Both the position numbers and the translations under genes were made by a program. From Methanolobus vulcani (lineage in GTDB: Archaea; Halobacteriota; Methanosarcinia; Methanosarcinales; Methanosarcinaceae), in assembly GCF_006546655.1 (NCBI RefSeq), contig NZ_VIAQ01000015.1, forward strand, positions 310,001 through 374,000: DNA of 64,000 bases, read 5' to 3'. Positions 3,718-62,548 of this stretch are shown here, one piece after another. The notes below the pieces were generated by a model. That model saw only the letters and a list, made by a program, of their open reading frames with translations. It did not search any database and was not told where the DNA came from. Numbering within the stretch: the first letter of the stretch is position 1; each line of letters starts with the position of its first letter.

Positions 3718-5025
3718 ATGGACGAGAAAATCGCGCCACATATAGATGAATTAACCATGGCGCTTGGAAACATTAGCAGGGAAGAGATCAGCAGAGAGCT
3801 TGATAAACTTTTAAAATATCGTGTTCCGCTGGATGAAGCCAAGAGGATGATTAAAGCTAAGTATCTTTCAGTTTCATCTAATACAGTAAGTGTCAAAGAC
3901 CTCTCCCCGGGATTAAATGGCATCGAAATAAGCGGACGTATAATCGATATTGTTGAAAAGACCGTATCGATACAGGGTGAGCAGAAAACCATATTTTCAG
4001 GAACTCTTGGTGATGGAACTGGCATCTGTTCTTTCACATGCTGGGATGATATGTCATTAAAACCAGGAGATGCAATACGCATTAAAAATGCCTATACACG
4101 TCTCTGGAACAACCGGCCTGAACTTTATTTTGGAAAAAGGTCGACAATAACTTATCTTCAGGATAATGAACTTCCTGAATCGGAAGAGATGTCTCATTCA
4201 AATCTCAAGAAACTGGGTAATATTGTTCCTGCCGATGTACTTGTGAGTTCAGTTGTATTGATCGTGGAGATGTATCACCGTGAGATAATGCTCAAAGGTG
4301 AGAAAGTAACTGTCGTTGAAGGTGTTCTGGCAGATGAGACTGGAAAACTACCTTTCACTTCATGGGTACCTCTGGGAGGGCCTGACATTGGTGATTACAT
4401 TCGTTTTGAAGGGGCTTCTGTGAGAATATTCAGGGGTCTTCCATCCATAAATTTCACGGATGCAACCTCCATTGAAAAAATCTCAGATACATCTGAATTG
4501 CCATTTACAATGGAATCGGTAAGCAGGGCAAGTTCTTCGGTTGCCATTGAAAATCTCCTTGAGAAAGAAGGAATGTTCGATGTGACTGTCAGTGGAAATA
4601 TTATATCGATAAGGTCCGGTTCAGGACTTATCGAGCGCTGTCCACAATGTAATCGTGTAACACAAAAATCTTCCTGTCGTTCTCACGGTGAAGTGGAATG
4701 TCTGACTGACATGCGCATAAAAGCTATTCTTGATGATGGAACAGGTGCAGTTCACCTGATTCTTAACAGGGAACTTTCTGAGGCAGTTTATGGTAAAAGC
4801 ATGCATGATGCCGAGAAGATGGCACAGAGTTCACTTTCCGGTGATACAGTGTTCGAAGACATGAAAAAAGTACTTACCGGCAAATATATTGCAGCCAGAG
4901 GGAACTCATCCCGTAACGAGTTTGGGGTTTCGCTTGTTGCCAGGTCTGTATGGGTTCCGGAAAATGATGTTGAGAAGCATATTGAAGATCTTCTGGAAAG
5001 AATAGGTACAGGATGTGATGAGTAA
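3718..5025 (+). CDS. Replication protein A (single-stranded DNA-binding), two OB folds plus zinc finger
   Basis: A 435-residue euryarchaeal RPA that coats single-stranded DNA in replication and repair. The start is ATG 3718 with AAAGGAG at 3704-3710; the open frame extends 108 bases upstream, but that stretch lacks family similarity. An N-terminal helical region (about 1-60) is followed by OB folds at about 65-165 and 180-285. A zinc finger C308-x2-C311-x8-C320-x2-H323 lies inside a third OB-like region. The partner COG3390 gene begins at the overlapping TAATG. A shorter paralogue with the same finger lies at 11167, again with a COG3390 partner. Confidence 0.93.
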   Translation: MDEKIAPHIDELTMALGNISREEISRELDKLLKYRVPLDEAKRMIKAKYLSVSSNTVSVKDLSPGLNGIEISGRIIDIVEKTVSIQGEQKTIFSGTLGDGTGICSFTCWDDMSLKPGDAIRIKNAYTRLWNNRPELYFGKRSTITYLQDNELPESEEMSHSNLKKLGNIVPADVLVSSVVLIVEMYHREIMLKGEKVTVVEGVLADETGKLPFTSWVPLGGPDIGDYIRFEGASVRIFRGLPSINFTDATSIEKISDTSELPFTMESVSRASSSVAIENLLEKEGMFDVTVSGNIISIRSGSGLIERCPQCNRVTQKSSCRSHGEVECLTDMRIKAILDDGTGAVHLILNRELSEAVYGKSMHDAEKMAQSSLSGDTVFEDMKKVLTGKYIAARGNSSRNEFGVSLVARSVWVPENDVEKHIEDLLERIGTGCDE

Positions 5026-7832: not shown

Positions 7833-8756
7833 TTATTCGCCGTTGTATATTTTCAGAGCATCTTCAACAGATGCATCCTCGACTGTTATGGCATAGATTG
7901 CATTACACATTCTGACGGCTTCATCGAGGGATTTCTGGTGTACATTTCTTCCGGTTGCGTTACCACATGCGCCACTGACATGGATCTGGGCATAGAGCTT
8001 CTCAAGGAATGATTTTGGATCATCGCTGGAACCGCCAGCACAAACAACCTTTGTCCTGCCAGCTGCCAGAACGGCTTCCTTGAATGATTCCTCAGTCGGC
8101 ATTCCCTCAGCTTTTGGATAGTTCACCTTTACAAAGTCTGCGTTAAGGCATGCACCGACACCGGTTGCACCTGCAATAAGGTGTGGGTCTTTCTCGTTTG
8201 CAACTGCTTCTCCTCTTGGATATATCCAGAGAACAGTTACCATTCCAAACTGGTGTGCCTCATAAATAAGCTGTGCAGCCTGGTAGAGCATTTCAGCTTC
8301 ATATTTGCTTCCAAGGTATATGGTGTAGCCAATACCAAGAATGTTGAGTCCACTGTTGTCACGGAACTGTGCTACCTGCTCCATGTCATACCACTGACCA
8401 CTGTATGGGTCATCCTGATTTGTTTTTACAAGGTGGGATTTTGAGTTTACTTTGACGAGATATGGTACATCTGCATAATCCATTCCATATCTTGCAATAA
8501 GTCCCAGCTGTGTTGCAAAAACACCAATCTTTGAATTTGCAGCTATTTTAAAAAGATGTTCCGGGTCGTTGTCATCTGCAGGGACGCCCTCTCCAAAAAA
8601 ATCATCATTGAGGTGTTCAACTTTCTGGTCACCTGCAAAGAGCATCATATTTCCGCTGTTTGATGTGATCTTCATATAATTTTTAATATACGTTTCACGT
8701 GCATCCTGCGGTACATCCAGTGGAACTTTAATATCTTCTTCTTTCATTAAGGCCAT
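7833..8756 (-). CDS. Class I (DhnA-type) fructose-bisphosphate aldolase family protein
   Basis: A 307-residue Schiff-base aldolase of the DeoC/LacD superfamily, archaeal FBP aldolase branch. Recognisable parts are MLFAGDQKVEHLND near the N-terminus (in place of the usual DHG), VTVLWIYPRGEAV, the Schiff-base lysine strand DFVKVNYPKAEG, VVCAGGSSDDPKSF and the phosphate-binding AGCGNATGRNVHQ-like end (ACGNATGRNVHQ). It would cleave or form fructose 1,6-bisphosphate. PGK, a GlpX-type FBPase and an ADP-dependent kinase elsewhere in the window fit this pathway. It is monocistronic. Other archaeal relatives make aromatic precursors, so the substrate is not certain. Confidence 0.85.
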   Translation of the reverse strand: MALMKEEDIKVPLDVPQDARETYIKNYMKITSNSGNMMLFAGDQKVEHLNDDFFGEGVPADDNDPEHLFKIAANSKIGVFATQLGLIARYGMDYADVPYLVKVNSKSHLVKTNQDDPYSGQWYDMEQVAQFRDNSGLNILGIGYTIYLGSKYEAEMLYQAAQLIYEAHQFGMVTVLWIYPRGEAVANEKDPHLIAGATGVGACLNADFVKVNYPKAEGMPTEESFKEAVLAAGRTKVVCAGGSSDDPKSFLEKLYAQIHVSGACGNATGRNVHQKSLDEAVRMCNAIYAITVEDASVEDALKIYNGE

Positions 8757-12094: not shown

Positions 12095-12661
12095 ATGGCA
12101 GGATACACAAGGGAAGTTGCCAGAAGGATATTCGCACAGGAATTCAGGGAATCCAATCTGAGTTTTAAGGACGGCGATGATCAGTATGCTCCGCAATATC
12201 TTCTTACACCAACCGGTGCTAAAGTGAACCGGATATTCATAGTAGGAACTCTCATTGAAAAAGAAGACATTGGTACTGATTCAGAGTACTGGCGTGGAAG
12301 AGTGACCGATCCAACCGGTTCATTCCTCATATATGCAGGCCAGTATCAGCCTGAAGCAGCACAGGTGCTTGCGGAATGTGAAACACCAGCATTTGTAGCG
12401 GTTGTCGGAAAGCCAAGCACTTATACCACTAACGAAGGCGATGTACTTACATCAGTAAGACCAGAGTCACTTCACATAGTTGATGGTCAGACAAGGGATA
12501 TGTGGGTAATCGAAACCGCAAAATGTACTCTTGACAGGATAAAAGAATTGGATGGTTCCTCTCCAAATGCTCAGAGAGCAAAGGAGTATTATGATCCTGA
12601 TGCAAAACATTATTCTTCAATGGTTTCCCAGGCATTGAAATCCCTGAAGGAAACATACTAA
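12095..12661 (+). CDS. RPA-associated protein (COG3390), short form
   Basis: A 188-residue partner of the RPA just upstream, starting 1 base after its stop. It shows the family segments IFAQEFRESN, TPTGAKVNRIFIVGTLIE, WRGRVTDPTGSFLIYAGQYQPEA and SVRPESLHIVD, closely matching the N-terminal 170 residues of the long form at 5025. It lacks that protein's C-terminal extension. The family is thought to form a complex with RPA; the two forms here may be dedicated to the two RPAs. Confidence 0.87.
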   Translation: MAGYTREVARRIFAQEFRESNLSFKDGDDQYAPQYLLTPTGAKVNRIFIVGTLIEKEDIGTDSEYWRGRVTDPTGSFLIYAGQYQPEAAQVLAECETPAFVAVVGKPSTYTTNEGDVLTSVRPESLHIVDGQTRDMWVIETAKCTLDRIKELDGSSPNAQRAKEYYDPDAKHYSSMVSQALKSLKETY

Positions 12662-12664
12662 CAT

Positions 12665-12698
12665 AATCAGGGCAAGCTCCCTGATTGTTATCTATTTT
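12665..12698 (+). terminator. Hairpin terminator after the second RPA operon
   Basis: Perfect 8-base stem AATCAGGG (12665-12672) and CCCTGATT (12679-12686) with loop CAAGCT, followed by a T-rich run ending near 12698. It starts 3 bases after the stop codon. Confidence 0.7.
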
Positions 12699-53001: not shown

Positions 53002-54117
53002 ATGAAAGTCATAATTATAGGCGGTTTTCTTGGCAGTGGCAAAACTACTACTCTAAGGAATCTCGGAAAACATCTCATTGATAAGGGTCACAAGATAGCC
53101 ATAATTGTCAATGAGGTTGGAGAGGTTGGAGTAGATGGTGCAACAATCTCAAGCAGCGGACTTGTTACAAAGGAACTTACAAGCGGTTGTATATGTTGCT
53201 CACTCAAGGTTACCATGGAACTAACATTGGATAGCCTCATTGAGGATTACAACCCTGACGTTGTTATTATTGAGCCTACGGGAATTGCATTCCCTCTCCA
53301 GATCAAGGAGCACATTGAGCTTATGGACCTTGGTGAAGTTTCCTTCGCACCGGTTGTTACACTTATTGATGCCAGCAGGTTTGGTGCAGAGTGGGAACAG
53401 ATTCCAAAGTTCATTGAGAACCAGATCAAGGAGTCTGAGATCGTTTGTATCAATAAGATCGATCTTGTTGACAGGGAAACTATTGCATCTTCAACACAGA
53501 AGGCACTGGAGATAAATCCTGATGCTATTGTTGTAGAGTTCTCCGCAAAGAATGCCGATGATAAGTTTGAGAGATTCATGGATTTGTTGACCGGTGAAAG
53601 TGAGTTACATCAGGAACGTGAAGATGTGAATTCCATGGAAGTCTCAGGTGTCGGATCATATGCAGGTGAGTATTCTATTACTTCCAATGGTAAAGATACG
53701 GATCAGATAACTAACATGCTGGTTCATACACTTGTGAATATCAAGGACAAGGTTAAGGAGATAAATCCTGATTTTGTGGGTCATGTTAAGATAAGTTTCA
53801 AGTCATCTTCAGGTCTTGTAAAGGGTAGCCTGACATCATCGGATGGTGAACCCGTGGTTGAGATTCTCGATGAGAAAGGTGACGGGGAAGAACACCTCAA
53901 GTTCCTGAGTGCTGTGACAAAGGTTGATAAAGAGGAACTTGTGCATATCGTGGATGGGTGTATCCAGAGTAATCTGGAAAAGGAAGCTGTATCTTTTGAG
54001 AAAGTAAGTTCTACTCACGATCACCATGATCACGATCATGGGCACCACCATGAAGATGGTCACTACCACGAGCATAACCATGAGCATAATCACAAACATG
54101 GTCATCATCATGATTAA
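53002..54117 (+). CDS. COG0523 (CobW/P47K) GTPase with His-rich C-terminal tail
   Basis: A 371-residue metallochaperone-type GTPase. Walker A GGFLGSGKTTT is at residues 7-17, the metal site GCICC near residue 58, IEPTGIA in switch II, NKIDLVD for guanine recognition, and a CobW C-terminal domain. The last 30 residues are mostly His, with Asp, Glu and Gly (HDHHDHDHGHHHEDGHYHEH-like), a typical Zn, Ni or Co store. A likely role is metal delivery to metalloenzymes such as corrinoid or nickel proteins. The DUF2148 gene follows 115 bases later. Confidence 0.9.
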   Translation: MKVIIIGGFLGSGKTTTLRNLGKHLIDKGHKIAIIVNEVGEVGVDGATISSSGLVTKELTSGCICCSLKVTMELTLDSLIEDYNPDVVIIEPTGIAFPLQIKEHIELMDLGEVSFAPVVTLIDASRFGAEWEQIPKFIENQIKESEIVCINKIDLVDRETIASSTQKALEINPDAIVVEFSAKNADDKFERFMDLLTGESELHQEREDVNSMEVSGVGSYAGEYSITSNGKDTDQITNMLVHTLVNIKDKVKEINPDFVGHVKISFKSSSGLVKGSLTSSDGEPVVEILDEKGDGEEHLKFLSAVTKVDKEELVHIVDGCIQSNLEKEAVSFEKVSSTHDHHDHDHGHHHEDGHYHEHNHEHNHKHGHHHD

Positions 54118-54232
54118 ACAGACACTGTAAAGAAAAAGCACTCTGATTTTGTTACTTTTTTGGGCAGGAATAGTTCCTGTCCTGTCCAGTTTTATGTGAA
54201 TGTCTAAATATCATTGAAGCATTTTTTCTTTT

Positions 54233-54781
54233 ATGAAGCAGAATCCTGAACTTGAAGTACTTGAAACGCTTGCAAATACTATTCTTGTGGCTGCAAGAAC
54301 AGCACCAAAAGGTAAGGGTGTTGATGATATTGTGACCTATTTGTTCAATGATGATGACAGAATGGATCTTGCTGATAAGATGGAGGAGCTCAGTGAGACC
54401 AAAGGTCTGAAATTCCTGATTCGTGATGCTCAGAATGTGAAAGATGCTGATTGTCTTGTAATCATTGGCCTGAAGTCTTCTGGTGTGAGTTCACTTAATT
54501 GTGGTGCATGCGGATATGAGACCTGTGCCGATATGGTTATGCACAAGAAAGTAAAGGTAGAATTTACCGGTCCGCACTGCATGATCAAGTATGTGGATCT
54601 GGGAATTGCTGTTGGATGCGCTGCTGCCAAGGCAAAGGATTTGTGTATTGATAACAGGATTCTTTATTCTGCCGGTGCAGCTGCATGTTATTCAGGCATG
54701 ATTGATGCAGATGTTGCAATGGCAATTCCATTGAGTGTTAAAGGTAAGAATATATTCTTTGACAGAGCATCGACAAGGTGA
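54233..54781 (+). CDS. DUF2148 ferredoxin-domain-containing protein
   Basis: A 182-residue protein of the DUF2148 family. The N-terminal part has VLETLANTILVAARTAPKGKG, a start typical of nitroreductase-like relatives. Cysteines occur in NCGACGYETCADM, FTGPHCMIKYVDLGIAVG, KAKDLCID and AAACYSG, suggesting an iron-sulfur or metal site. The function is unknown. Its place after a COG0523 GTPase suggests it could be a client of that chaperone. Confidence 0.85.
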   Translation: MKQNPELEVLETLANTILVAARTAPKGKGVDDIVTYLFNDDDRMDLADKMEELSETKGLKFLIRDAQNVKDADCLVIIGLKSSGVSSLNCGACGYETCADMVMHKKVKVEFTGPHCMIKYVDLGIAVGCAAAKAKDLCIDNRILYSAGAAACYSGMIDADVAMAIPLSVKGKNIFFDRASTR

Positions 54782-54943
54782 ATAGCCGTTTGACTGTTAC
54801 AGGTTAAGACAATTTTATTATTTATTTCTCTTTTTTTCCCTGAATAACTCTTATAAGTTTTCAGTTCATTTTCTTTTATGTATTTAATATACATCTCTAA
54901 AATGTGTTTTAGGGTAATATAATAGGTTTAGCTTTCAGTTAGT

Positions 54944-56155
54944 ATGGAAGAAACATCTGTGGGGAAATATTTCATGGCTACAAAAGCATGTATTACTAAG
55001 CAGCCGCAAGGCCTTGCTTTCTTTGAAAGATACCTTCCTGTGTGGGTAATTCTATGTATTGTTGCCGGTATCCTGCTTGGCAGATTTGCACCGGGAGTTG
55101 CACTTTATCTTGACAGTCTGTCAATATATGTTGATGAGGCTCCGGTGGTATCAATACCTATCGCTATCTGTTTGTTTTTCATGATGTATCCCATTATGGT
55201 AAAGATTGATTTCGGTGAGGTGCTCAAAGCAGGTCAGAACATCAGGCCTGTTGGTCTTACACTATTCATCAACTGGGCTATCAAGCCTTTCACCATGTAT
55301 GCTATCTCTATTTTCTTCCTTGGTACAGTTTTCCTTGGATTTATCGGTCCTGAAGCAACTGACATTGTAAAAATGCCCTTCGGACTTGACCTGCCGGTTG
55401 GTGCAAGTTATGGAGAAGGTACAGTTGTTTTGCAGGATGGGATTAAAATGCTTGAGGTGCCGCTGTGGAGAAGTTATCTTGCAGGTTGCATTCTTCTGGG
55501 AATTGCTCCATGTACTGCCATGGTGCTTGTGTGGGGATACCTTGCACGTGGAAATGACTGCCACACGCTTGTGATGGTTGCAATAAACTCACTGACCATG
55601 CTTTTCCTCTATGGTCCTTTGGGAGGTTTCCTGCTTGGTGTTGGAAAACTTCCGGTTCCATGGCAGGCGCTGGCATTGTCCATTGGGATATATGTAGCAC
55701 TTCCGCTGGCAGCAGGCTATATTTCCAGAAAACTGATAATACGTGCAAAGGGTGAGGAATGGTTCAAAACAAGTTTTGTCCATTTGCTGACACCGGTGAC
55801 CATTACAGCTTTGTTGATTACATTGATATTGCTTTTCAGTTTCAAGGGTGAGGTTATAATGTCACAGCCATTGACAATTCTGTGGATAGCTGTACCGCTT
55901 TTCATACAAACTGTGTTCATCTTCACTCTTGGATATGTGCTTGCAAAGCTGCTGAAACTGAGCTATAAGGACGCTGCTCCTTCTGCAATGATAGGAGCGT
56001 CTAATCATTTTGAAGTAGCTATTGCCACGTCAACTATACTGTTCGGATTGTCATCAGGTGCTGCTCTTGCAACTGTTGTAGGAGTTCTTATTGAAGTTCC
56101 TGTGATGTTGATGCTTGTAAGGATTTGCCTGCGGACGGAAGAATGGTTCAGCTGA
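54944..56155 (+). CDS. ACR3-family arsenite efflux transporter
   Basis: A 403-residue membrane protein with about 10 helices. The family motifs are [16 protein letters not shown], the catalytic-Cys helix [21 protein letters not shown] and [15 protein letters not shown]. It would export arsenite from the cell, driven by the proton motive force. No arsR or arsC is adjacent. An alternative start is ATG 54974, which has GTGGGG about 10 bases upstream. Confidence 0.9.
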
Positions 56156-56372
56156 ATCCCCTTTTCTCTTTTATTATCTTTTCTTTATGGTCATCTATTT
56201 ATTAGATGGACAACTAACTCTTCTTCACATTAGCCATATATTTGGATTATGTGCAAAAATATTGTTGCTAATATGATGGCTTAATGGTGCATATGGGTGC
56301 TGGATATTTCAATAGTAGCTGTATTGCCTATGGTGGGGTACGAAAAGGATAAATTGAATATGGAGGACGTGG

Positions 56373-56831
56373 ATGAAAAATATAATTGTGATCTCACTGT
56401 TATTTATGATGTTGCTGATGCCAGTTGCCAGCGCGGATATTGTTGATGATCTTGAAAATGATATAGATGAATACAATGCTAATGTGGATGCTGTTCCCTC
56501 TTATCTTGTAACTCTTCTGGGTGATGAGACTATAAAGCTTGTAATAGTCGATGATGAAGGAGATGAGGTCTACATCAAGGCCATTACGGAAGATGCAGTC
56601 ATCACAACATTTGAAGAAGTTGATAAGGATGAAGACTTTGGTGCGACCATGGTTGTAGGTGCAAATGACTTCAGCATAAGGTCTGTTCTCAGGGTATCAG
56701 ACCCATTGTCAAGGTTCATTGCAGCAAAGGACAACGGTGAGATTGTTGTGGAACCTGTGACTGTTACAAGTACTGTAAAATATACCGTTGCCAGTGTGGT
56801 AATGGACGTAACATCATTATTTGGATTTTAA
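56373..56831 (+). CDS. Small secreted protein of unknown function
   Basis: A 152-residue protein with a clear signal peptide (KNIIVISLLFMMLLMPVASA, cut near residue 21) and a strong GGAGG about 7 bases before ATG 56373. The mature part is acidic with alternating strands (TIKLVIVDDEGDEVYIKAI, FGATMVVGANDFSIRSVLRV) and helix LSRFIAAKDNGEIVV. The pattern faintly recalls SCP2-like domains, but I cannot assign it. A decayed second copy of its end lies at 58801-58974. Confidence 0.75.
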   Translation: MKNIIVISLLFMMLLMPVASADIVDDLENDIDEYNANVDAVPSYLVTLLGDETIKLVIVDDEGDEVYIKAITEDAVITTFEEVDKDEDFGATMVVGANDFSIRSVLRVSDPLSRFIAAKDNGEIVVEPVTVTSTVKYTVASVVMDVTSLFGF

Positions 56832-56869
56832 TTGTTCAGCACCTTTTCATTTGAACATTTATTGGTTGC

Positions 56870-56992
56870 ATGAACGAAGTATGGATGGATGTCCACGGCG
56901 CCGGTGCACAGAGAAGCGATCCGAAATCAGGTGACCCGGATGATTTAATTATCAATAGGATGGATTATTCGTCCATCCTTGATTTTTATTAG
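56870..56992 (+). pseudogene. Possible gene fragment encoding a 40-residue HGAGAQRSDPKSGDP peptide
   Basis: An ORF of 40 codons, ATG 56870 to TAG 56992, between convergent genes. Its N-terminal half MDVHGAGAQRSDPKSGDPDD looks like conserved protein sequence; from memory it resembles the C-terminal part of large secreted proteins. The second half is encoded by the hairpin at 56957-56979. There is no Shine-Dalgarno site, and it overlaps the end of the gene on the other strand by 4 bases. It is probably a relic. Confidence 0.4.
56957..56990. terminator. Bidirectional hairpin terminator
   Basis: AGGATGGA (56957-56964) and TCCATCCT (56972-56979) form a perfect 8-base stem with loop TTATTCG, followed by a T-rich tract. 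It lies between the convergent small secreted protein gene and the PGF-CTERM-like gene pair. Confidence 0.6.
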
Positions 56993-57861
56993 TTTCTCCT
57001 TAATCCAATTGCCATGAAAAGCATGAATACTAGCATTTCTGAGCTGAAATCAGGTAATATATTTGTTTCAGAAGGAGCCTCTTCTCCCTCATCAAGAATT
57101 ATCTCTACGCCTCCTACAAAAACTACTGGTACATCATTTATACCTGCTTTTTCGTAATGAGCCTCGATAAGTTCATACATTTCGTCTATTGTTGATTCAT
57201 TCACAGTTGTCTGGTAAGTAGAATCAAAGTCCACAGTCAGGTATCCATTGATATCAGTTCCAAAACTTACCACATGTCCTCCATTTGAAACCATATACGC
57301 CTCAATTTTTGACACAGGGGCATTTGCATATAGCAGTCCATACCATTCTCTTTTCTTCCCACTTTCAGTTATATCCGGTATTGTTCCTCTGGCTTCTATG
57401 AAACCGGACAGTTTCTCTGCCTCTTCAAAACCATTTTGTCCCAGATCAGGTAGCGAATAGTCGGAATCTGTCCACATGAAAACTATTGGAACTTCACTGA
57501 GATTGTAATTTTGTTCGCAATAAACGGTTATTTTTGTGTATATCTCATCAATTCTTGTTTCGTTAATCTCTTCCTGATAAGCCGGGTCCAGTTCTACTTC
57601 AATCCAATTATCCCGGTGAGCACCGTAGCTGGCGATGGAAATATCAAATTGAGAATAAGGTTTGTTTTTTGTTAAATTAAAATAGCATTCAATTATTGAA
57701 TTATCCCATTCCTGGCTGATTGTGTCGGGAACTGTTCCTCTGGTTGTTATGAACCGCGGGCTGTCTTCTAGGTCACTCGTAAAAGCGTATGCGGTGCCAG
57801 TTAACAATAGAGTGACAAGTAGTGCAATTTGCAATGCTCCTCTGATTTTTCTCCCTAACAT
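56989..57861 (-). CDS. Secreted protein with two internal repeats and a PGF-CTERM-like tail (PDF variant)
   Basis: A 290-residue extracellular protein. A signal peptide (LQIALLVTLLLTGTAYA) precedes two copies of a roughly 120-residue domain. Each begins with RGT(V/I)PD, continues through E-x-N-E-(T/S)-x-IDE(I/M)Y and ends VP(I/V)VF. The end is ILPDFSSEMLVFMLFMAIGLRRN, a short hydrophobic helix and Arg pair like PGF-CTERM but with PDF in place of PGF. ATG 57861 has AGGAGG 8 bases upstream and is preferred over ATG 57867, which overlaps the previous stop. Function unknown. Confidence 0.78.
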   Translation of the reverse strand: MLGRKIRGALQIALLVTLLLTGTAYAFTSDLEDSPRFITTRGTVPDTISQEWDNSIIECYFNLTKNKPYSQFDISIASYGAHRDNWIEVELDPAYQEEINETRIDEIYTKITVYCEQNYNLSEVPIVFMWTDSDYSLPDLGQNGFEEAEKLSGFIEARGTIPDITESGKKREWYGLLYANAPVSKIEAYMVSNGGHVVSFGTDINGYLTVDFDSTYQTTVNESTIDEMYELIEAHYEKAGINDVPVVFVGGVEIILDEGEEAPSETNILPDFSSEMLVFMLFMAIGLRRN

Positions 57862-57863
57862 AA

Positions 57864-58748
57864 TCATGCCCTCCTGATCCCAATTACCAGCGCAAGTCCC
57901 AGAACTAACATAATTGAAGTAAAACCGGGTGTCGCTTCAATCTCTGTTTCCTCAATGTCTTTTTCTGACCATCTAAAGACCACAGGCACGTCATTGATTC
58001 CCTCTTCTTCAGCCTTTTCATCTATTATCTGGTAAATATCATTGATTACAGATTCGTTAATCAGTTCCGGAGTTTCTGAATTGAACTCTACTGTAATATA
58101 GCCGTTAAGGTGAACACCAAACCCAAATACAGTTCTCTCTCCGTACAGGTCATAATAATATTGTTCCAGTCCTTCAACATTTTCTGTGACTTTTGTGAGT
58201 TTGTCAGTCCACGCAATTTTCTCGCTGAGTTCGTCAATTTCGGGAACTGTTCCCCTTGTGGTTATAAGCCATGATTCATTCTGTATTCTTTCAAAACTTT
58301 CATGACCATATTCCGGGAACCACATTTCATCATCCTGCCACAGGAAAACAACAGGAACTTCACTGATTCCCTCTTGCTCTTCACAGTAATTTTCTATTAT
58401 GTTGTAAATCTTATCAATTCTCGCCTCATCAACCTCATCCTGATAATCAGAATTCAAATAAACATTTAATATTCTGTCTCTGGAACTTATGGCTCTGAAA
58501 GAACTATCAAATTCAGATCTTCCCATTCTTGTGAGATTTAGCCAGCAATTCTTAATTGAGTTATTCCATTCTTTATCCATTATATCAGGAAGCTTTCCAC
58601 GACATGCAAATATTTCCGGGTCATTTTCGTATTCTTCAAAGCATGCGTTTGAGTCATTTTCAATAGCATTTACTGTTGCAATCAAAAAAACACTAGCAAA
58701 TAAAGCAATTAATATCAATTGTACAATTATTCTCTTCCTGATTGTCAT
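57864..58748 (-). CDS. Secreted protein with two internal repeats and a PGF-CTERM sorting tail
   Basis: A 294-residue paralogue of the next gene. A signal peptide (IVQLILIALFASVFLIATVNA) is followed by two repeat domains (CRGKLPDIMDKEW to VPVVFLWQ; TRGTVPEIDELS to VPVVFRWS). The tail TPGFTSIMLVLGLALVIGIRRA is a standard PGF-CTERM signal, expected to be cut and lipid-anchored by an archaeosortase. ATG 58748 is used; GTG 58757 is possible. The downstream paralogue overlaps its stop, so they form an operon made by tandem duplication. Confidence 0.82.
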   Translation of the reverse strand: MTIRKRIIVQLILIALFASVFLIATVNAIENDSNACFEEYENDPEIFACRGKLPDIMDKEWNNSIKNCWLNLTRMGRSEFDSSFRAISSRDRILNVYLNSDYQDEVDEARIDKIYNIIENYCEEQEGISEVPVVFLWQDDEMWFPEYGHESFERIQNESWLITTRGTVPEIDELSEKIAWTDKLTKVTENVEGLEQYYYDLYGERTVFGFGVHLNGYITVEFNSETPELINESVINDIYQIIDEKAEEEGINDVPVVFRWSEKDIEETEIEATPGFTSIMLVLGLALVIGIRRA

Positions 58749-58800
58749 ATATATCACAAGTCTTTAAACAATAATTTCTTGTAATCTATAAAACATTTAT

Positions 58801-58974
58801 GTAGTTAATATAGTCCTTATTTCATCATACCTATTGTCAGAGTTCATCGCAGCAAAGGACAATGGTGAGTTAGTTGTGAGGCAGGTAGGTGTTACAAATC
58901 CTCTGATCAATTTTTTGTTAAAATTTCATGATAATTTTTTTATCTGGCGTTCTCTGCTGGCATATATTTGCTGA
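58801..58974 (+). pseudogene. Relic of a second copy of the small secreted protein gene
   Basis: The DNA at 58828-58900 closely matches 56700-56772 inside the gene at 56373. Its in-frame translation SEFIAAKDNGELVV corresponds to SRFIAAKDNGEIVV of the parent, with weaker similarity before (VLISSYLLSEF) and after (VTNPL). The frame runs to TGA 58974. No start codon, signal peptide or first two thirds of the gene is present. The rest of 58749-59045 shows nothing further. Confidence 0.65.
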
Positions 58975-59045
58975 CTTGAGGAAATTATTTATTTGTATGA
59001 AACTTGAAGGTATAATCTTCAATATACCGAATATAGGAAGAGTAC

Positions 59046-59723
59046 ATGAGCTTTGATATTGACATCTGGATGAAAGAATACTTAGAAAAGGTGAAATCCC
59101 TGTTTACTTCCCGGCTGGTGTTTGTCGGGCTTCAGGGGAGCCGTGGGCGCGGTGAAGCAACGGAGAGCAGCGATATTGACGCGGTTGTTATACTCGACCG
59201 TGTGGATGTGCAGGATTTGAAGGCATACAGTGCTGTTCTAGACACACTTCCTAACAGGGAGATGGCATGTGGTTTTATCTCCGGGAGACAGGAACTAGTC
59301 AATTGGGAAAAATCCGATTTGTTCCAGTTCTATTATGACACTACACCGATTTACGGAAACATTGACTTTCTGTTGAAGACAATTAAAAAAGAAGATATTC
59401 ATCGTGCTATCCGAATCGGAGCCTGTAATATATACCATATGTGTGGTCACAATATGGTGCATGAGAAAGATGCGGAGATGTTGAAAGCCCTGTATAAAAC
59501 AGCTGCTTTCACCGTACAGGCGGTTCATTATGACCAAACGGGAACTTATATAAAACTCAAAAAAGAGCTGATCTCAGTACTGGGGCCACTGGAACGGGAG
59601 ATACTGCAAACTGGTATTATGATTAGAACGCAACCTTCTGTGGTGCAGTCTAAGTTTGAGCCACTCTCTGAGTTGCTCTTCAATTGGGCGGCGGAAGTGA
59701 TTATAGAATACAAAGCTGATTAA
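59046..59723 (+). CDS. Nucleotidyltransferase-fold protein
   Basis: A 225-residue protein with the pol-beta-type nucleotidyltransferase core: GLQGSRGRGEATESSDIDAVVIL, giving the G-S motif (G31, S32) and catalytic acidic pair D43 and D45. The C-terminal half is helical. Such proteins include antibiotic nucleotidyltransferases and toxin-antitoxin MNT-like enzymes; no HEPN gene is next to it. The ATG at 59046 follows AGGAAGAG. Its lone position in an accessory-looking stretch suggests acquisition. Confidence 0.75.
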   Translation: MSFDIDIWMKEYLEKVKSLFTSRLVFVGLQGSRGRGEATESSDIDAVVILDRVDVQDLKAYSAVLDTLPNREMACGFISGRQELVNWEKSDLFQFYYDTTPIYGNIDFLLKTIKKEDIHRAIRIGACNIYHMCGHNMVHEKDAEMLKALYKTAAFTVQAVHYDQTGTYIKLKKELISVLGPLEREILQTGIMIRTQPSVVQSKFEPLSELLFNWAAEVIIEYKAD

Positions 59724-60037
59724 TTGAGTAGATTGTGTCTGTTCAAGAAAGAAGCATATAACCTACATAGTTTGGATTTTGAGATTGACCTGTGGGAACG
59801 GTTTGTTAAACTATTCGTTTGCTTCTGTTTTTGAGTTTTTTATTGGAATGAGGATTTCCGATTAGTCTGGATCATAGAAAATAAATTTCTACATATTCAA
59901 TCGCCTCAACAAAATCCAGGATTGCATATAAATGAAAAAGAGATTTAAGAACAGTTGTTAGAAGTCTTTCTTTCATCAGGGTGATTAGGCTACTTGCATC
60001 AAAATTTAATGTAGAATGATACGACACAAAAAAATAT
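59724..60037. other. Intergenic region with one weak small ORF
   Basis: This holds 314 AT-rich bases. On the minus strand, a 51-codon frame from GTG 60027 to TGA 59872 encodes a hydrophobic-ending peptide (LFHLYAILDFVEAIEYVEIY). It has no Shine-Dalgarno site and no recognisable family. It could be a degraded gene end or chance. No repeats or hairpins stood out. Confidence 0.35.
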
Positions 60038-60544
60038 ATGCATGACATTCATATTTTATTACTGATGGGGCTCAAACTTTGTACAAGTAATAAAACAAAA
60101 TATGTTCTTTGGCTTAAGACCGCCATTAAAAATCCATCAAGTTCCATATTCTTTATATTAGGCATCCCCTTTCTGTATGCATTATTCTGGGTTTTGCAAC
60201 CAGGTGGGGATTTATCGCCCCCTTTTATTTTAGTCCCAACTTTTACAGTAATTTGTTATGCATACTACACCAAAAATAAATTATCATCTGCAATATTAGG
60301 ATTGGCACTGTTCTCATTGACAATGTTTTATTTGGATTTCCTATATGCTGTCCTAAATTATTCAAACAATATTTTCATGTTTTTAACATGGAATCGAATT
60401 ATATCCTCGATTCTGGACATGTTACCATTTTCAATTATTCATTTAATAATAGGAGCTTCAGTTGCATCTCGAAAAAAGGAATATTTATTCATTGCAGCAA
60501 TTCTGATTTTATTGCTTGTGTTTATTGTTCGCGGTATCGATTAA
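60038..60544 (+). CDS. Hypothetical membrane protein
   Basis: A 168-residue, AT-rich, hydrophobic protein with about four membrane segments (SSIFFILGIPFLYALFWVLQ; ILVPTFTVICYAYY; AILGLALFSLTMFYLDFLY; EYLFIAAILILLLVFIV). There is no Shine-Dalgarno site at ATG 60038 or at the alternative ATG 60065. No family is recognised. The composition and orphan state suggest a recently gained or poorly conserved gene. Confidence 0.45.
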   Translation: MHDIHILLLMGLKLCTSNKTKYVLWLKTAIKNPSSSIFFILGIPFLYALFWVLQPGGDLSPPFILVPTFTVICYAYYTKNKLSSAILGLALFSLTMFYLDFLYAVLNYSNNIFMFLTWNRIISSILDMLPFSIIHLIIGASVASRKKEYLFIAAILILLLVFIVRGID

Positions 60545-60773
60545 GTATAATCTTTTCTGTCTTCACATTATGTTTTATCTCCCTTATCTATGGTTATTTC
60601 CTTTACTTGGCGTAATCTGAAAACGCATCTCTTTCTACAATAACCACCAAAGCGCAACCATTATACCCCTGCAACCACTTTTCCACCCTATATTCAAAAA
60701 ATCATAGACTATGTGGAATACTGCAACCATTAGGTGCAAATCCTGAAATATCATAGTAAAGTAAGGTATAATC

Positions 60774-61241
60774 ATGGACGTAAAAGATGTAATGAACACT
60801 GAAGTTGTAACCTGTTCCTCTGAAACACCTATCAGGGAGGTAGCACAACTCCTGAAGCAGGAAAAGATCAGTGGTCTTCCGGTAGTGGATGGCGACAAGG
60901 TAATTGGCATTGTTTCAGAGGGAGACATTCTTAAACTGCTTGAGGTTCCTGAACATGGTGGTCTGTGGCTTCCAAGTCCTTTTGAGGTTATCGAAGTACC
61001 AATTCGCGAGCTGCTCAACTGGGAAGAGACCAAGGACATGCTTGAGGACTTTGGTTCAAAACCTATCAAGGAAATAATGACCAAGAGTGTTTACGCAGTA
61101 GGTCCTGATACATTCATCGAGGATGCTGCCACAATCCTGAGCAAACACAAGATCAACCGTCTTCCTGTAGTAAACGAGGATGGCACGCTTGTGGGCATTG
61201 TAACACGTGGTGACATCATCGCCGGTCTCGGACAATTGTGA
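60774..61241 (+). CDS. Protein with a CBS-domain pair
   Basis: A 155-residue protein of two CBS motifs. The first is VKDVMNTEVVTCSSETPIRE, with SGLPVVDGDKVIGIVSEGDI. The second is IKEIMTKSVYAVGPDTFIED, with NRLPVVNEDGTLVGIVTRGDI. An insert of about 35 residues carrying HGGLWLPSPFEVIEVPI lies between. Free-standing CBS pairs bind adenine nucleotides or SAM and regulate partners. It precedes argJ by 69 bases on the same strand, but a functional link is uncertain. Confidence 0.9.
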   Translation: MDVKDVMNTEVVTCSSETPIREVAQLLKQEKISGLPVVDGDKVIGIVSEGDILKLLEVPEHGGLWLPSPFEVIEVPIRELLNWEETKDMLEDFGSKPIKEIMTKSVYAVGPDTFIEDAATILSKHKINRLPVVNEDGTLVGIVTRGDIIAGLGQL

Positions 61242-61310
61242 GTTCGGCCAAATTCTAACTATAAAAATTACAATTACAAAAAGATATTCAAATCGAGCAG
61301 AAGGCATATC

Positions 61311-62495
61311 ATGAAATTCATTGAAGGCGGTATCTGTGCTGTAAAAGGCGTGCGTGCCGGTGGAATCAAACCCGGAAAGATGGGACTGGCAATCATTCAG
61401 GCAGAAGGAAACGCTGCCGGAGTCTACACCAGGAACAAGGTTATTGCAGCTCCTCTTGTAGTAACAAGGGAGCATATCGCAAAGACCGGCAGACTCTCAG
61501 GCGTGATTGTGAACAGCGGCAATGCCAATGCTTTCACAGGTGTTCAGGGTCTCGCAGATGCAAGGATCATGGCATCTGCCCTCGCATCAAAACTCGATGT
61601 CAGCGAGGAACTCATAGGTGTGGCTTCCACAGGTGTTGTAGGTCGCAAACTTGACACCGGGTGGATAAGTGCTCATATTGACGAGGTTCTTGACTCGCTG
61701 GGTGAAGACGGCGATGCAAGCATGAAAGCAGCACGATCAATCATGACAACCGACACAGTCCCAAAGGAAATTGCAATCGAGATGGATTGTGGCATCCGCA
61801 TAGCTGGCATTGCCAAAGGTGCCGGTATGATCGAGCCGAACATGGGTACAATGCTTGCTTTCGTGTATACCGATGCAGAAGTTCACCCTGATGTATTACA
61901 GTCATGCCTGGCTGTTGCCGTTGACAAGAGTTTCAATATGATAGTAGTAGACGGTGACACAAGCACCAACGATATGGTACTTGTGACAGCCACAGGACAA
62001 TCCGGCATCACTCCTGAAGTTTCTGACCTTCAGGCAGGTCTTGACTTTGTTCTCACCGAGCTGGCAAAGATGATAGCAGTTGATGGTGAAGGTGCTACCA
62101 AGCTCATTGAATCTAAGGTAACTGGTGCAGCAACAGAAGAGGATGCATGTCTTGTAACCAAAGCAATTGTTCGCTCTCCACTTGTAAAAACCGCAATATT
62201 CGGTCAGGATCCAAACTGGGGACGCATTGTAGTTGCAGCAGGCTATTCGGGTGCTGATATTATACCTGAGAAGATCTCCCTTTCATTCTCAGCAGGAACC
62301 GAGGTTGTGGAACTTGTAAAGGACGGTGAGGTTGTCAGGAACGATGACGAAACCCTTTCCAAATTAAAAGAGATCATGGCAGAGGATGAAATTTACATCA
62401 TCACCGACCTTGGCATGGGTGATAAGAGTGCAACTGCGTGGGGTTGTGACCTGACCTACGATTATGTCAGGATAAATGCAGAGTATACAACCTGA
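61311..62495 (+). CDS. argJ: Ornithine acetyltransferase (ArgJ), arginine biosynthesis
   Basis: A 394-residue precursor that self-cleaves into alpha and beta chains. It recycles the acetyl group of N-acetylornithine to glutamate, and bifunctional forms also use acetyl-CoA. The autocleavage site is EPNMG|TMLAF, with nucleophile T180. Typical segments are IVNSGNANAFTG, STGVVGRKLD, DTVPKEIAI and the C-terminal FGQDPNWGRIVVAAGYSG. argC follows 53 bases later, so these are an arginine operon. Confidence 0.95.
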   Translation: MKFIEGGICAVKGVRAGGIKPGKMGLAIIQAEGNAAGVYTRNKVIAAPLVVTREHIAKTGRLSGVIVNSGNANAFTGVQGLADARIMASALASKLDVSEELIGVASTGVVGRKLDTGWISAHIDEVLDSLGEDGDASMKAARSIMTTDTVPKEIAIEMDCGIRIAGIAKGAGMIEPNMGTMLAFVYTDAEVHPDVLQSCLAVAVDKSFNMIVVDGDTSTNDMVLVTATGQSGITPEVSDLQAGLDFVLTELAKMIAVDGEGATKLIESKVTGAATEEDACLVTKAIVRSPLVKTAIFGQDPNWGRIVVAAGYSGADIIPEKISLSFSAGTEVVELVKDGEVVRNDDETLSKLKEIMAEDEIYIITDLGMGDKSATAWGCDLTYDYVRINAEYTT

Positions 62496-62548
62496 CCATA
62501 TTACCTGATTACTAATTTAATTGACAATTATTGATTTCGAGGAAGATA

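Follow-up and report, generated by a model that had tools for sequence, protein, structure and literature searches.

A downstream fragment of a secreted-protein gene in Methanolobus vulcani is probably the gene's own former 3' end, displaced by inserted DNA

The stretch analyzed here, termed the window, is 64,000 nt of Methanolobus vulcani DNA (assembly GCF_006546655.1, contig NZ_VIAQ01000015.1, positions 310,001 to 374,000, forward strand); its closest named relatives are Methanolobus species, and compared genomes are given by handle (G039 and so on). A gene for a 152-aa secreted protein, here the parent gene, lies between conserved neighbors: the order cobW, 182-aa gene, parent, CBS-domain gene, argJ was kept in 16 of 20 fetched stretches. 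The four stretches lacking it were those of G025, G035, G064 (where the parent sits in a different gene neighborhood) and the window genome's own paralogue. What lies between the parent and CBS genes differs by species: a nucleotidyltransferase, CTERM-like proteins, a Fic protein, a band-7 protein, a NosD/beta-helix surface protein, a cohesin-domain protein and a lipoprotein with an Lcl_C domain. With conserved flanking genes and cargo unlike between species, the interval from the parent to CBS-argJ is a gene-turnover hotspot. The window features that matter here are as follows.

56373–56831, + strand: parent gene, encoding a 152-aa secreted protein (signal peptide by eye; probably an SCP2-like fold)
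56658–56666, + strand: GGTGCAAAT within the parent (nt 286), common to the CBS-argJ 5' flank, from sequence comparison
56845–56945, + strand: 3' remnant of an Lcl_C-domain (PF07603) lipoprotein gene, 101 nt, beginning thirteen nt after the parent stop
56989–57867, - strand: CTERM-like surface protein gene 1, probably inserted; below every CTERM model cut-off
57864–58757, - strand: CTERM-like surface protein gene 2, probably inserted; likewise below every CTERM model cut-off
58812–58906, + strand: proximal piece of the putative displaced original parent 3' end, a pseudogene piece equal to parent nt 312–406 (approximate bounds, from relatives' parents)
58907–59758, + strand: putative later insertion with an NTP_transf_2-family nucleotidyltransferase gene (59046–59723), splitting the displaced end
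59759–59782, + strand: distal piece of the putative displaced original parent 3' end, about 24 nt with the stop codon, from a G039 match
59783–59989, + strand: T, the parent downstream flank, a terminator-like hairpin plus about 150 nt, from sequence comparison
60597–60776, + strand: R, the CBS-argJ 5' flank and right hotspot border, holding GGTGCAAAT at 60733–60741
60774–61241, + strand: CBS-domain gene, the conserved right border gene, from domain search and gene order

By eye, the interval was also seen to hold argC in some species: the gene lies between cargo and CBS in G059, G045, G055 and G054 and was not seen there in the window's clade, while G042 seems to retain an argC stub. In G063 (L039) the interval from parent to CBS contains two small genes that by eye resemble a MazE/MazF-type pair. 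In G059 (L033) a 95-nt direct repeat (76%) was found at 746–840 and 4230–4323 from the parent ATG, one copy before a large NosD/beta-helix gene and the other over that gene's end.

Relatives of the parent protein were detected at E up to 0.001 in 26 of the 27 genus genomes. No curated family reached cut-off in Pfam or NCBIfam scans, which include no hit to a curated SCP2 sequence model, and a PDB sequence search gave a single marginal row, a lipoprotein at E 0.015. An AlphaFold2 model from 21 sequences had a mean pLDDT of 59.9, with the core better. Searched with that model (mean pLDDT 59.9), Foldseek returned SCP2 structures in all of its first ten rows; UbiJ-SCP2 6h6p_B scored E 7e-4 and TMq 0.45. 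VIA-align 2 likewise placed SCP2 folds first, aligning 106 residues with 6h6p_B at Z 9.8 and rmsd 2.7. On the strength of this model, the parent probably encodes a secreted protein with an SCP2 fold.

Downstream, the fragment 58824–58902 aligns with parent positions 56696–56774 over 79 gapless nt at 77% identity, and its frame is open across the matched codons (VLISSYLLSEFIAAKDNGELVVRQVGVTNP). The first-pass annotation had matched 58828–58900 to 56700–56772 in frame and called the downstream segment a decayed copy. Homology and decay both hold: the alignment it proposed confirms that the two segments are homologous, and with relatives' parents the match extends to approximately 58812–58906. 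The score of the parent against its own 3.9 kb downstream was 43, when the best of 200 dinucleotide shuffles reached 19. Nor is this a widespread short repeat, the outcome by which that annotation would have fallen; at E up to 1 the window's own genome gave two matches, the fragment itself and the parent. Chance similarity and a dispersed repeat are thus refuted by the shuffle scores and the own-genome search.

A functional small gene at 58834–58974 would be a third way to dismiss the fragment, and an open frame of 46 aa does exist there. However, only part of this ORF is homologous to the parent, and the sequence past 58906 belongs to the nucleotidyltransferase segment. Genome G060, assembled in two contigs, has the same feature, so an assembly artefact is unlikely. 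Between the window and G060, the fragments differ at 6, 7 and 6 sites in codon positions 1, 2 and 3 over 90 nt, against 3, 3 and 9 for the parents; so even a spread, over just 90 nt, looks like that of a pseudogene and speaks against a functional gene. The corresponding fragment of G059 has an in-frame stop and that of G062 has lost the frame. The window fragment would encode no more than the end of an SCP2-like domain, which could hardly fold by itself. A search of 54000–62500 found no Rfam family at gathering score, a further point against chance, repeat or small gene, explanations that we regard together as extremely improbable.

Beyond what the first-pass annotation described, a second piece of the same gene end lies at 59759–59782, and T follows it. 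Behind the nucleotidyltransferase gene, GTTTGGATTTTGAGATTG at 59770–59787 is identical over its 18 nt to G039 sequence that spans the parent stop codon. In G039 and G063, T stands directly 3' of the intact parent; in the window it stands 3 kb downstream of the parent, behind the fragment and the nucleotidyltransferase gene and adjoining 59759–59782. When joined, 58790–58906 and 59756–60030 align as a single stretch with the uninterrupted parent end and T in G039 (253/324 nt, 78.1%), and the same joined pieces match the parent end plus T of G063 at 261/336. Because the pieces and T line up with G039 in this way, the fragment is most plausibly a tail that the gene itself once had. About parent nt 407–435 of that tail are missing in the window, so its continuity rests on both ends.

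The arrangement in G060 is that of the window, and a profile of the gene end plus T matched it at E 7.8e-10 (E 0.48 with the T profile alone); the former profile contained the window, so that the G060 match alone is independent. G039, G063 and G046 were the sources of the T profile and match it by construction. The distance from the parent stop to T is 1.5–4.6 kb in the window, G060, G062 and G046. Among outgroups, T signals were clear in G051 (E 5.5e-20) and G057 (1.2e-8); both arise in the outer part of T, a part with further weak matches at other places in G063 and G059. The inner part gave E 0.0057 right behind the G051 stop codon. Direct adjacency of parent and T thus appears to be the older state, as judged mainly from G039 and G063 with partial outgroup support. 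In a concatenated tree with several supports below 0.85, G063, whose locus is uninterrupted, falls within a group of interrupted species, and this requires that loss or exchange took place. G059 shows the opposite polarity, with weak T signals (E 0.041 and 0.25) after its parent, not after its fragment.

We searched for more examples in relatives. Coding fragments of the 3' end alone were found downstream of the parent at 4 of 24 Methanolobus loci (the window, G060, G062 and G059), and at none of 14 paralogue loci when each gene was used as query. Two non-coding matches were left uncounted, a flank repeat beside the G045 paralogue and a flank match upstream of the G062 parent. Three of the 27 genomes provided no parent locus, G041 and G052 having only matches of about 40% and G049 none; G053, which starts at a non-ATG match, was omitted from profiles. 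The downstream reach of the 24-locus scan was about 145 nt in G048 and about 4.5 kb in G047. All four fragments are downstream of the parent, in its orientation, comprise its 3' part only and start at about nt 284–313; those of G062 and G059 reach the stop codon or beyond. Left of the fragment, no trace of parent nt 1–283 was detected in any of the four genomes (best same-strand E, 0.21).

These results bear on the reading given by the first-pass annotation, that an older tandem array was split. In such a history, a full duplication of the parent would have been followed by entry of the CTERM-like pair between the two genes, the downstream one then decaying to the present piece. The fragment's frame and orientation are those expected, and tandem arrangements do occur elsewhere in the family: in another genus, G033 has a tandem pair of the parent's relatives (C1:66326-67439), and G035 has a nearly whole decayed second copy, nt 54–456, 3.6 kb downstream (L043, 8853–9250). 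Against it, the four Methanolobus fragments are all 3'-only, start within about 30 nt of one another and show no 5' trace, and the stretches scanned at the 24 Methanolobus parent loci yielded no further full-length copy. Moreover, a duplication including the flank would have given T to both copies, yet the window has T joined to the tail and not to the intact parent. We consider an array of whole genes quite unlikely; the annotation's proposal that the CTERM-like pair is part of DNA inserted between the two segments is borne out, apart from its label "PGF-CTERM", since no curated CTERM model reached cut-off.

The fragments may not trace to one event. In a tail tree with moderate support, the window and G060 fragments grouped at 0.88 and joined that of G062 at 0.77, and the G059 fragment grouped with its own parent at 0.97. 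In G062 the tail lies before the Lcl_C and 218-aa genes; in G060 and the window it lies after remnants of one or both. A single event for the G062 and G060/window fragments was rejected on this gene order, which complementary loss could mimic.

The junction in G062 was the most informative about how such a tail might arise. Its fragment has on its left an R copy that matches best the R of G039 (69/76; 65/75 for its own R), and rightward from the fragment G062 is collinear with the parent end and Lcl_C gene of G046. There are three R copies in G062, all at this locus, and one in the window's genome. The extra copies in the G062 hotspot (L032) lie at about 8028–8114 and 12568–12677, as if three units were stacked. 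R and the parent have GGTGCAAAT in common, and G062 switches from R to tail about 20 nt behind it; its R and tail also share GGTGCAA near the junction. From these alignments, G062 looks like two species' versions of the locus joined end to end, with the conserved parent gene apparently serving as anchor and a short match completing the join. The G059 fragment starts exactly at GGTGCAAAT, with a left neighbor that is not R; given the T signals by its parent, G059 may have added a unit on the right.

The same observations could suggest a partial tandem duplication, running from the parent tail to the CBS-argJ flank by unequal exchange at GGTGCAAAT-like repeats and followed by complementary gene loss. 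The three R copies and R-to-tail junction of G062 would fit, as would the exact start of the G059 fragment and the presence of GGTGCAAAT in both parent and R; the window has 4 copies of it where 0.71 are expected, and 0 of 100 shuffles had as many. But the G062 units hold different genes rather than decayed copies of one set, and two of them are like the single versions seen in G046 and G061. A search of the window at E up to 1 revealed no R copy ahead of the fragment, and T does not adjoin the parent there. These points make a partial duplication unlikely.

The G062 junction suggests recombination anchored in conserved flanks. To the window this mechanism carries over by analogy only, because the window's left junction has neither an R copy nor GGTGCAAAT.

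The stretch from before the CTERM-like pair to behind the nucleotidyltransferase gene is 88% shared with G060, and G058 has one gene related to the pair. A long Lcl_C-type gene, of which the window keeps the remnant, comes after the parent in G046 and after the fragment in G062. With matches counted up to E 1e-20, 3 of 27 genomes have the nucleotidyltransferase gene, always at this locus; it lies inside the old tail in the window and G060. In G044, some ORFs resemble transposase by eye.

Some integrative elements use the 3' end of a tRNA or protein-coding gene; when they encode an integrase, the gene is made whole again by a 3' end that they bring along, and its former end stays beside the native flank. 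A virus or plasmid encoding an integrase, since lost, might have used the parent 3' end as its attachment site, making the tail the displaced half. Such an event would leave the same displaced-end anatomy by another mechanism, and the recurrent fragment starts agree with it. So does a 3' piece (about nt 237–454) of the parent's gene family in G025, of another genus (L042:6948-7161), since it adjoins a putative phage terminase-like frame. This degenerate frame directly precedes the piece and, by its motif, resembles a phage terminase C-terminus; it had no Pfam match. The region that holds the piece shows partial collinearity with the parent neighborhood of G064.

Yet tyrosine integrases (PF00589), present in 27 of 27 genomes, were absent from the four fragment loci, the nearest in the window's own genome being about 76 kb away. 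Ten cargo proteins from relatives carried no mobility domain. No relative of the parent was found in plasmids or phages, and none of either the parent or the G025 piece in viral contigs, where the scans detect close relatives only. As for an identical core repeat at the borders, only short exact stretches are left between parent and tail. We judge site-specific integration rather unlikely.

Displacement by other means is the favored explanation: the fragment and 59759–59782 are probably what remains of the 3' end that the parent originally had, pushed downstream by an insertion, and not the relic of a second gene. The comparisons pointing to this are the tail joined to T, the 3'-only anatomy, its recurrence in relatives and the lack of a whole second copy in the loci scanned. 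Foreign DNA would have entered the last third of the parent, at about nt 300 of 459, its left edge bringing a homologous replacement 3' end so that the parent stayed whole. The cargo, made up of the CTERM-like pair and an Lcl_C-domain gene of which a remnant survives, would thereby have come to lie between the parent and its old tail. That tail, with neither start codon nor selection, would have decayed, and the nucleotidyltransferase gene would have split it afterwards; this order of events is our reconstruction. The incoming DNA was presumably this interval as carried by a related species; one side would have joined through pairing of homologous sequence within the conserved parent gene, the other through a match that was short or poor.

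The parent's present 3' end is accordingly read as a replacement end. In 36 of 36 pairs among 9 genomes, the last 150 nt of the parent were more alike than the first 300 nt; selection alone could account for these closer 3' ends. Comparison of 5' and 3' identity was also tried as a donor finder and named no donor for the window.

Like the integrative elements that use 3' ends, the incoming DNA would have restored the gene with its own 3' end and left the old one at the far border. Unlike them, the locus has no tyrosine integrase, no identical core repeat was seen, and the cargo is small (about 2 kb in the window).

The type of event is already known; what is unusual here is how legible it is. 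Chromosomal gene-turnover hotspots, many of them free of mobile elements, are described for bacterial species by Oliveira et al. 2017 (PMC5635113); here the hotspot is shared by species of an archaeal genus, and a single insertion can be read from the displaced 3' end. Homology-facilitated illegitimate recombination, as outlined in PMC6382021, combines a homologous anchor with a join at a short match, in segments of 3–10 bp, in naturally transformable bacteria. G062, with an apparent homologous anchor and GGTGCAA shared near its junction, is suggestive of this process; the window junction shows no clear short match. A looser analogue is provided by the VARTIG loci of Thermococcales (PMC8416519), which encode a large Ig protein with a hypervariable C-terminus. 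There too an upstream gene recombines near its 3' end while downstream gene sets change, though in our case the gene is small and its last 150 nt are more alike than its first 300. Among the literature matches listed, none reported this locus, and we do not claim its absence from print.

The finding corrects a natural misreading, in which a truncated copy is taken for a decayed duplicate, and searching for the native downstream flank is a check that can be reused elsewhere. It is possible, if doubtful, that the tail of the SCP2-like gene and the CBS-argJ 5' flank serve as standing anchors at which Methanolobus species exchange and stack versions of the interval, integrase-free. If so, each addition would leave a displaced tail as a scar, and the locus would preserve, in order and in legible form, how a methanogen captured genes from other species. 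The way in which methanogen species acquire genes from one another could be traced here event by event, and integrase-free insertion in archaea could be tested directly.
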